Assembly: GCA_002746425.1 (NCBI GenBank)
Contig: NVXB01000001.1
Span: forward strand, 150,704-186,208
Reading direction: 5' to 3'
Length of the DNA: 35,505 nt
Origin: Hyphomicrobiales bacterium
Lineage (GTDB): Bacteria; Pseudomonadota; Alphaproteobacteria; Rhizobiales; GCA-2746425
This document shows, in pieces, positions 12,458 through 35,420 of the stretch. The notes under the pieces are model-generated. The model was not told the origin of the DNA, made no database searches, and saw only the letters and a program-made list of their open reading frames with translations. Within the stretch, counting starts at the first letter, position 1, and every line of letters starts with the position of its first letter. The position numbers and the translations under genes were made by a program.

Positions 12458-12534
12458 TGGTCCCGAGTATAGGATTTGAACCTATCCTTCCTGATCCACA
12501 ATCAAGCGTGCTAACCAGCTAACACTATCTCGGT
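12458..12534 (-). tRNA. tRNA-His(GTG)
   Basis: Loop TTGTGGA, T-arm ATAGG-TTCAAAT-CCTAT, encoded CCA; mismatch at 1:72; 5' end overlaps the end of the upstream CDS. Confidence 0.8.
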
Positions 12535-12773
12535 AATAATTTTATAACAAATGAACCTTTATGAAAATCTTCATGGATTTCTTTTATATACGGTTTAAAT
12601 ACAGGATTACTCATCCATCGTTCAAATTCTTTTTTCATTTTTCCACTTCTACCAGTAATAATTTTAACTGTTTTCTTACCACTCAGGGCATGAATTTTTA
12701 TGAAACTTAAAGTTAAATTATATCCTTGTTGCACTGTTTTACCATGTAAATCCATAATATAATGTAATGACAT
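12525..12773 (-). CDS. Smr-domain protein
   Basis: MDLHGKTVQQGYNLTLSFIKIHALSGKKTVKIITGRS. Confidence 0.8.
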   Translation of the reverse strand: MSLHYIMDLHGKTVQQGYNLTLSFIKIHALSGKKTVKIITGRSGKMKKEFERWMSNPVFKPYIKEIHEDFHKGSFVIKLLPR

Positions 12774-13240: not shown

Positions 13241-13314
13241 TGGCAAGAATAATAGGACTCGAACCTATATTTGCGATTTTATAAATTGCTGTTCTTCCAT
13301 TGAACTATATTCTT
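13241..13314 (-). tRNA. tRNA with unusual anticodon (reads ATA by strict positions)
   Basis: AAGAATA/TATTCTT acceptor, disc G + CCA, loop TTATAAA; late promoter TATAAATA at 13323-13330. Confidence 0.65.
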
Positions 13315-13862: not shown

Positions 13863-14222
13863 GGAAGTTGATTTGGTTATAAGGTTCAACTTCCAAAACC
13901 TCAAACAATCAATTAAGATTAAGCAGCAAGAGCCACTGTTTCAAAATTATCATTACTTGCATTTAAGTTTGCATTTACGTTTTTAGAACTATTTCGCATT
14001 CTACGCGGTATTCTCCATTTTCCTATTCAATATCAATCGATCCCATGTCATCCCCATCAAAGATACACTGCTCAGACTCAATTCTCTGTTTTGACTAAAA
14101 AAAGATTTATACGTTAAACAATTACGTAGAATCTAAGAAACTTTCTTTAGACAGTGTATCCATGGTGGAGATGCCGGCTTCGAAGCCGGGTCTTGATCAT
14201 CTTTCAGTCTACTTCACTGAAT
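13863..14222 (-). ncRNA. ssrA: circularly permuted (two-piece) tmRNA; boundaries approximate
   Basis: Acceptor piece ending ...CCGGCTTCGAAGCCGG-CATCTCC-A-CCA (14163-14190), then coding piece starting GGGGATG (14055-14049) that pairs with CATCTCC, then tag ORF 13972-13919 ANLNASNDNFETVALAA*; hairpin 13863-13895 near the 3' end. Confidence 0.9.
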
Positions 14223-14228
14223 ACATAT

Positions 14229-14260
14229 TATTTATATACTACAATCATTCTAATGTAAAC
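14229..14260 (-). promoter_or_regulatory. overlapping early and late promoter for tmRNA
   Basis: GTTTACA-N17-TATAAA; the -10 is embedded in TATAAATA. Confidence 0.7.
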
Positions 14261-15036: not shown

Positions 15037-15410
15037 CTTACATATTTCCCAATCACTTCTATTTCATCATCAGATAATTTATTTAAAATTTTATCAATTT
15101 CTTTGATATTCTTTTTCCAGGCTTTCATTCTTTGTTTATTTTTCTTTTTAATTTCTTTCCATTTATCCTTCAAGAACTTGTCTAAAATTACACCTGTACC
15201 TCCACATCTGTCACACGGGACTTTTCTTACACAGAGTTTATAGCCTTCATATGGGTCTCGTTCATTTTCATCATAATCTAAACCCTTGCCAAGGCAATGA
15301 GAGCAGACACGTTTTAATGTTTGTGGCAACACTGTCGTATGATTATTTTCTATTTGTTCGAATGTTTTAAAACAAATATATGGTGCTGGTGGATAAAATT
15401 TATTTCTCAT
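15033..15410 (-). CDS. DnaJ-type Cys-rich zinc-finger protein
   Basis: CSHCLGKGLDY...CDRCGGTG. Confidence 0.7.
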   Translation of the reverse strand: MRNKFYPPAPYICFKTFEQIENNHTTVLPQTLKRVCSHCLGKGLDYDENERDPYEGYKLCVRKVPCDRCGGTGVILDKFLKDKWKEIKKKNKQRMKAWKKNIKEIDKILNKLSDDEIEVIGKYVR

Positions 15411-16174
15411 TTTGGCTCAAATCCTCGTTTATTATGATCAAAATTGTTCGGAACACCGCCATTTAAACTTCCTGCATTTTTACGAGGTGGCAAATAATCA
15501 AACCGTGCTCTGCAAGTTTTAAGCATTTTACTTCTGTAAATGTCATTTACTAGAACACAATCGTGATGGTAAAACCTGCCATATAAATAATCATCAGAAT
15601 AATTTGAAAGAACATCACCAGCCTCGAGAATCATTTGAATACGATCTTGTGTATTTTTATCATTCAATTCCGAATGGGAATAATGTAATTGTGCAATGCC
15701 AGTAATACCATTTTTATAACAATCTAAATAACGCCATAAAAAAATTCTTTCTGCGTCTGCATATTCATGTATGCCAAAAACTCTACAATCAAAATAAGCT
15801 TTATTATAATCCAAAGCAAAGTTTGATGTAAAAATAGAAGCAATAATGCTATTCATTTTATGAAGTTTTCCACCACAATAATACTCAAAAAACTCATTAC
15901 CTGATGCTGCACATAGAAAAGTAATTTCGTCACTCTGTGAATAAATTGCACAAGCGCCAATTTCTTTAGCAGTCGCTAATGCAGCTTTATCTAAAGAATT
16001 TGCTAAATTTTCACTATAAGGTTTTTTAAAGTTTTTAGTAAATTTTGAAAACTTTTTGCCATCAATTCTGATAGCAAGAAAAGGTGATTCACCTGGATCT
16101 ACTCTGTAGGATGTATATTTTTCTTCTAGCGATTTACAATAATCACCTAACGATTGTCGCATCATAATCTCCAT
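15407..16174 (-). CDS. Thg1-like tRNA 3'-5' nucleotidyltransferase (TLP)
   Basis: AIRIDGKKFSKFTKNFKKPYSENLANSLDKAALATAKEIGACAIYSQSDEITFL. Confidence 0.9.
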   Translation of the reverse strand: MEIMMRQSLGDYCKSLEEKYTSYRVDPGESPFLAIRIDGKKFSKFTKNFKKPYSENLANSLDKAALATAKEIGACAIYSQSDEITFLCAASGNEFFEYYCGGKLHKMNSIIASIFTSNFALDYNKAYFDCRVFGIHEYADAERIFLWRYLDCYKNGITGIAQLHYSHSELNDKNTQDRIQMILEAGDVLSNYSDDYLYGRFYHHDCVLVNDIYRSKMLKTCRARFDYLPPRKNAGSLNGGVPNNFDHNKRGFEPK

Positions 16175-34975: not shown

Positions 34976-35420
34976 AATTAATATGTTTCTATCGGCTAGC
35001 TAGGCCAAATTATGATAGCATTGTAGTATTGACATACAGTCATAAGATATATGCAATTTATTCCTACGAAACGGGTCCTTAATTTATTAAGCAGAATGGG
35101 CAAAATAGATCAGCGCATTTTAAATAAAAAAATCTTTAAGAGATGGAAATACTTAAACCATCAGAAGCGATAATGTTGTGTAGTTATAGGCATTATCACA
35201 ATTGCTTCCGCGCTTATAGGCGGTAGATAAAAAGTTAAAACGCAAAGCCTAGCTTTTCCTAACGGTTCTACTTATAACACAGTGACCCTCTTGTAAGACA
35301 AGACCCACTTAATCTCTTGCCTCCGGGCAAGGGAAGTAACTTCTTGAAGACAATAGGTTGGCTTAGAGAAGTCGAGTAAGAGTATAGCTTGCTATTCCGA
35401 TATTAATTATAGATGTAAGT

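Follow-up and report, generated by a model that had tools for sequence, protein, structure and literature searches.

Two-piece tmRNAs of phages have already been published, and the locus described here is a well-supported new example. According to the relevant passages of these papers, 53 two-piece forms were counted among 133 unique phage tmRNA structures (PMC9004378), a list of phage tmRNAs of every form runs to 79 sequences (PMC11915505), earlier cases have been listed (PMC4131195), and tmRNA genes occur in Bradyrhizobium phages, in passages that leave their form unstated (PMC12656738). The OM43 phage Melnitz is, like the phage studied here, a T4-like phage carrying a permuted tmRNA, which the passages on it tie to a glutamine riboswitch (PMC9004378); Rfam finds no such riboswitch in our window, that is, the whole 35,505-nt stretch of DNA that was analysed. 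Rhizobium phage RHph_I1_18 (MN988519.1) also has a permuted tmRNA inside a tRNA cluster, and its depositors annotate SsrA beside a tRNA gene. Unlike the gene in the window, it has a 7-nt GGCAGUA T-loop, a 6-nt spacer and a tag that reads ANDNSVQVRLAA or a few residues more. The Rfam family RF04321, which covers the two-piece tmRNAs of alphaproteobacteria, betaproteobacteria and cyanobacteria, shares with our locus the acceptor-then-coding order, the G3-U70 pair, the T-arm, the tag and the encoded CCA, whereas the phage gene differs by its 6-nt UUCGAA T-loop, 107-nt spacer, 17-aa tag and two resume-like sites. Neither 6-nt T-loops nor doubled resume sites of phage tmRNAs came up in our literature searches, which says little because these features were not named in them. 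Altogether, we consider it likely that the locus encodes a complete, functional permuted tmRNA of a T4-like myophage, which would supplement the host tmRNA and use the host machinery.

Location and architecture of the phage gene

The window corresponds to positions 11-35515 of contig C30 and also to positions 150704-186208 of the same contig, in a 4.14-Mb assembly. C30 is 186,208 bp long and begins with 35,515 bases that are found again 150,693 bp further on, the two copies disagreeing at 52 positions; among the 20 of these that were listed, one lies near the start and the others from position 35,386 on, and some of the disagreements, at the least, come from runs of N. Hence, the tmRNA is present twice probably because the ends of a single circular-mapping phage genome of about 150.7 kb overlap in the assembly. 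The contig codes for TerL, baseplate wedge, clamp-loader, sliding-clamp and SbcC/SbcD-like (gp46/gp47-like) proteins, a tRNA nucleotidyltransferase and NAMPT, and its GC content is 31.9%, compared with about 50% in two host loci. The tmRNA gene is therefore phage-borne, as an earlier sequence-only reading of the locus had stated: C30 is a T4-like myophage and not host chromosome.

The gene sits among tRNAs, a YqeY/tRNA-amidotransferase-like gene and Thg1. Around the tRNA cluster lies a set of RNA repair and tRNA genes, all on the minus strand: an RNA-repair RlaP-like nucleotidyltransferase (3153-4061), a weak 2H phosphoesterase match (5029-5448) and the Thg1-type tRNA-His guanylyltransferase (15407-16174). 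The minus strand also carries a tRNA-Tyr (13241-13314) for which ARAGORN reads AUA, an unusual anticodon, and a tRNA (12461-12534) that Rfam detects at 41.7 bits, is absent from the ARAGORN output and overlaps the end of an Smr-domain frame. The latter (12525-12773, minus strand), located 1.1 kb from the tmRNA, encodes an 82-aa protein (E 4.3e-7) with DLHG and TGRSG motifs. Smr nucleases act at collided ribosomes. A conserved module of Smr and tmRNA is unsupported, as Smr was found in 2 of the 42 other records searched, one of them above the cut-off.

The covariance model of permuted tmRNA (tmRNA_permuted, RF04321) matches the window at 14224-13919 on the minus strand, to which all elements below belong, with 86.9 bits against a gathering threshold of 47 (E 1.5e-15). 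This match bears out the permuted two-piece tmRNA that had been proposed from the letters, and so does the gene order, with the acceptor piece, including its T-arm and encoded CCA, preceding the coding piece. The acceptor piece (14163..14224), delimited by the RF04321 match and by T-arm and acceptor pairing, contains the T-arm CCGGC-UUCGAA-GCCGG (14189-14174), in which 5 of 5 stem pairs close the 6-nt T-loop UUCGAA. It continues with the acceptor 3' strand CAUCUCC (14173-14167), a discriminator A (14166) and CCA (14165-14163), a series that had been read correctly. The coding piece (13863..14055, from RF04321 and partial alpha_tmRNA alignments) begins at 14055 with GGGGAUG, which pairs at all seven positions with CAUCUCC to form a 7-bp acceptor stem, again as proposed. 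The third pair of this stem is G-U (G3-U70), the identity element for alanylation by AlaRS.

Downstream of the D-arm region, the RF04321 alignment and the tag reading place the tag frame and its stop, ANLNASNDNFETVALAA*, at 13919..13972. The coding piece ends in a 3' hairpin that forms a predicted H-type pseudoknot (13863..13902) from GAGGUU/AACCUU and GGAAGUUG/CAACUUCC, helices of 6 bp and 8-10 bp assigned from sequence and pairing only, and its loop ACCUUAUAACCAAA resembles the ACCUrGCAACAGAA of relatives. Between the two pieces lies a 107-nt intervening sequence (14056..14162), predicted to be removed, which forms a long helix adjoining the acceptor stem. The whole region folds better than its shuffles (z = -3.83), and so does the spacer, computed on 14056-14161 (z -3.00; 0 of 200 shuffles equally good), whose helix strands are conserved in part in the viral contig L367. 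The 3' hairpin region alone gives a moderate value (z -2.00; 6 of 200 shuffles equally good). Regarding the span 13863-14260 first assigned to the gene, its lower end coincides with the end of the pseudoknot, whereas the upper end precedes the first position of the model by about 36 nt. The lack of a covariance-model match, or of pseudoknots and a tRNA-like domain, had been named as grounds to abandon the tmRNA; the RF04321 match, the T-arm, the acceptor stem and the 3' pseudoknot are all present.

Upstream of the acceptor piece, at 14229..14236 on the minus strand, stands the octamer TATAAATA, which we take to match the octamer of T4 late promoters exactly and which can also be read as the -10 element of TTTACA-17-TATAAA. 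The octamer occurs 50 times in the phage unit, compared with 39.8 expected from 20 shuffles (range 30-55), and a promoter scan found 13 against 16.8 expected. Since the octamer count falls inside the shuffle range, we do not take it as firm evidence, and it hints only weakly at a putative T4-late-type promoter upstream of the tmRNA.

The check originally suggested for the locus, ARAGORN together with a covariance model, had a divided outcome: RF04321 scored above its cut-off, but ARAGORN reported no tmRNA in the window and alpha_tmRNA (RF01849) gave two sub-threshold partial matches (32.4 and 17.3 bits; gathering 50). Among the matches listed, ARAGORN missed 41 of the 94 viral candidates collected and found 28 of 28 host ones. 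T-loop size was considered as the cause and is unsupported: among these same matches, ARAGORN found 8 of 19 genes with a 6-nt T-loop versus 45 of 75 viral genes with a 7-nt one (Fisher p 0.20), and comparing the former with 13 viral UUC-type 7-nt genes gave p 0.075. Before duplicate removal, and with hosts included, the figures were 9/26 and 88/123. Because ARAGORN is the basis of the published phage count and misses viral genes, phage two-piece tmRNAs are probably undercounted in it.

Relation to host and viral tmRNAs

The phage contig is part of the draft assembly of a Rhizobiales bacterium, an aquatic alphaproteobacterium that we presume to be its host. This bacterium has a permuted tmRNA of its own (C9:19192-19414, 136 bits), with a 7-nt GGCGGUA T-loop, the tag ANDNYAEVRLAA and a coding-piece start that is also unlike the phage copy. 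Moreover, SmpB is found once in the assembly, on contig C125, outside the phage contig. Permuted tmRNAs occur in 57 of 61 related genomes, a set that includes the genome of the window, and the best matches in these genomes score 120.8-162.5 bits, well above the phage gene.

The sequence-only reading had suggested that the phage captured the gene of its host. The permuted form present in both, and a clade joining the window with all order-level cellular sequences, which is not rejected (p-AU 0.43), would fit such an origin. Nevertheless, we regard it as extremely improbable that the gene was recently copied from the ssrA of this host, because a clade of the window and its own host copy is rejected (p-AU 0.014), the T-loop, the coding-piece start and the tag are all different, and the closest block match is viral. 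The phage tmRNA may branch more deeply, beside alphaproteobacterial tmRNAs. A tree of 75 rows, comprising one third of the viral GGC/TGC-type genes and a limited host set (L194 was dropped because its T-arm failed), places the window among viral genes with weak support (80/86) and groups the host sequences apart from it with strong support (100/99). The window belongs to none of the starred sets, and L367 branches in another part of the tree, which therefore gives no link between the two by itself.

Homology to phage tmRNAs is evident from direct comparison. By sequence matching, the closest match appears to be that in L367 (IMGVR_UViG_3300007609_000003), another T4-like viral contig, of 201 kb, with a 51% identical TerL. 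The two genes have in common 36 identical bases running from the excised spacer into the coding start, and L367 differs by its 7-nt UUCAAUU T-loop and its tag ANANRAPAMAIAA. The exact 19-base coding start is present in four viral stretches. BLASTN of the phage tmRNA against named phages gave chance-level matches only, BLASTN of two viral tmRNAs gave none, and the TerL scans found one viral locus and zero genome loci. Among isolates, the nearest TerL proteins are those of RHph_I1_18 (57%), Pseudoalteromonas phage XG4 (51%) and Sinorhizobium phages (45-46%). When four near isolates were searched for permuted tmRNA, RHph_I1_18 scored 60.1 bits, phiM12 gave a partial sub-threshold match of 18.8 bits, and none was found in the genomes of XG4 and phiN3. 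This distribution suggests that the tmRNA is dispensable in the wider T4-like group.

Absence or partial presence in three of these four phages, together with a score weaker than those of the host copies, would also be expected of a decaying remnant, acquired in the past and no longer working. We find this very unlikely, given that the paired elements are all intact, the frame is unbroken, the stems have changed with pairing kept, and RHph_I1_18 and L367 also retain a permuted tmRNA.

A functional tmRNA agrees better with the pattern of conservation. We compared 122 unique permuted genes, obtained from 149 matches after duplicate removal; only genes with the acceptor pattern no more than 400 nt upstream were counted, so the set favours the canonical form. 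Among the matches listed, the two acceptor pairs that are not fixed are standard in 121 of 122 and in 122 of 122 genes, the other five acceptor positions being fixed by the search pattern. T-stem pairs vary in sequence across the set, and the phage stem has likewise changed with its pairing kept. The 3' pseudoknot and its loop motif, found in 39 of the 122 genes within the stretch examined, are also kept in the phage tmRNA despite a different stem sequence.

The usual 7-nt T-loop is absent from the phage tmRNA; seven nucleotides are not required by the RF04321 cut-off, and we did not count them as defining. Among the matches listed, 19 of the 122 genes have a 6-nt T-loop, all of them viral and the window counted; the scans of viral contigs yielded at least 120 matches each, so that viral counts represent a sample and not a prevalence. 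Across 299 genomes of the phylum, a search with a pattern that requires CANCTCC, and would therefore miss alpha-type CGCCTCC genes, detected 6-nt T-loops in this phage and, apart from it, in just two chromosomal genes, both from the same bacterial genus. These two genes rule out the short loop as a virus-only mark, and in our sample it seems mainly, not exclusively, viral. Both of them (L382 in genome G251, L383 in G248) are the sole permuted tmRNA of their genome and combine a viral-like 6-nt T-loop and a GGGGGTGAAATGG start with the ordinary alpha tag ANDNYAEARLAA, a combination that may have arisen when a mobile element replaced the gene in the past.

The tag frame and its doubled resume-like site

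The phage tmRNA has its own tag, as the sequence-only reading had seen. The Rfam alignment places the resume GCA at 13972, and the frame read from it, unlike that of the host, gives a 17-aa tag that closes with ALAA and a UAA stop. A second in-frame GCA at 13960 would yield ASNDNFETVALAA, of 13 aa, with the same C-terminus. According to passages of the work on the resume-codon context, the position equivalent to E. coli A86 is the key one, and the rule that we applied, U-5 A-4 before the resume codon, comes from the same source (PMC2481249). The first site has this context (UAAAU|GCA). Directly adjacent, GUAAAUGCAAAC and UUAAAUGCAAGU differ at 3 of 12 positions, a 12-nt near-repeat that gives the second GCA the same U-5 A-4 context. 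Such double in-frame resume-like sites occur in 3 of the 109 permuted genes that have a tag under this rule, among the matches listed; the 13 of 122 genes without one were left out of the tag statistics. The distance from the first GCA to the end of the coding piece is 83 nt, as it is in the host tmRNA and in L367, and this agreement favours the first site.

Read from it, the phage tag seems unusually long. Among the 109 genes, tags have 12-15 aa in 28 host genes and 10-14 aa in 80 viral genes, with two viral exceptions of 17 and 31 aa; the former was read from an early site, and its second candidate has 12 aa. Three IMG/VR genes (L171, L199 and L366) are permuted tmRNAs with an open tag frame of 29-31 aa (ANINNGEFTFVNFGALNDFAVNEDFALAA), far above the rest.

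Host and phage tags follow a common NDN(Y/F)-four-residues-LAA layout, and the NDN(Y/F) part is read here in the light of the adaptor roles of the tag. Because this layout is kept, the adaptor and ClpX ends of the phage tag look preserved. The idea that the longer tag alters proteolysis thus finds no backing in the sequence, as the tag is extended on its N-terminal side and retains both NDNF and LAA. An elaborated version would be speculative and seems quite improbable: both GCA codons would be used, so that one phage tmRNA writes tags of 17 and 13 aa that share the NDNF...ALAA end, adaptor handling would change with the longer tag, and the gene would belong to a branch of permuted tmRNAs adapted to phages, whose short T-loop is tuned to host SmpB.

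Proposed role during infection

In the role that we favour, that of a working tmRNA, host tRNA-processing enzymes would cut the transcript into acceptor and coding pieces that stay paired, and the host AlaRS would charge it with alanine through the G3-U70 acceptor stem. Host SmpB would then bind the phage tmRNA, which during infection would release ribosomes stalled on broken mRNA and add a tag ending in LAA, directing the products to ClpXP. Any benefit to the phage would come from supplementing the host tmRNA, as it would replace no missing one. Two departures from the host form, the 6-nt T-loop and a tag of unusual length, count against a working tmRNA.

A T-loop one base shorter than that of the host could also suit a decoy, that is, a phage RNA that occupies SmpB, AlaRS or EF-Tu and damps host trans-translation, with tagging being incidental. 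An inhibitory counterpart has been reported for the phage tmRNA of DS6A, which the passages on it describe as consisting of the tRNA-like domain only (PMC4131195, PMC11915505). However, a decoy would not need a tag frame, a stop, a resume context or a 3' pseudoknot, and all of these are kept. We therefore consider a decoy unlikely, and the retention of tag, resume context and pseudoknot makes both decoy and remnant less likely than a tmRNA that works.

The results of our analysis describe a phage-evolved permuted tmRNA that coexists with a separate, intact copy in the presumed host. Given this separate host copy, the question of why lytic phages carry a ribosome-rescue RNA becomes testable by the deletion of one gene.
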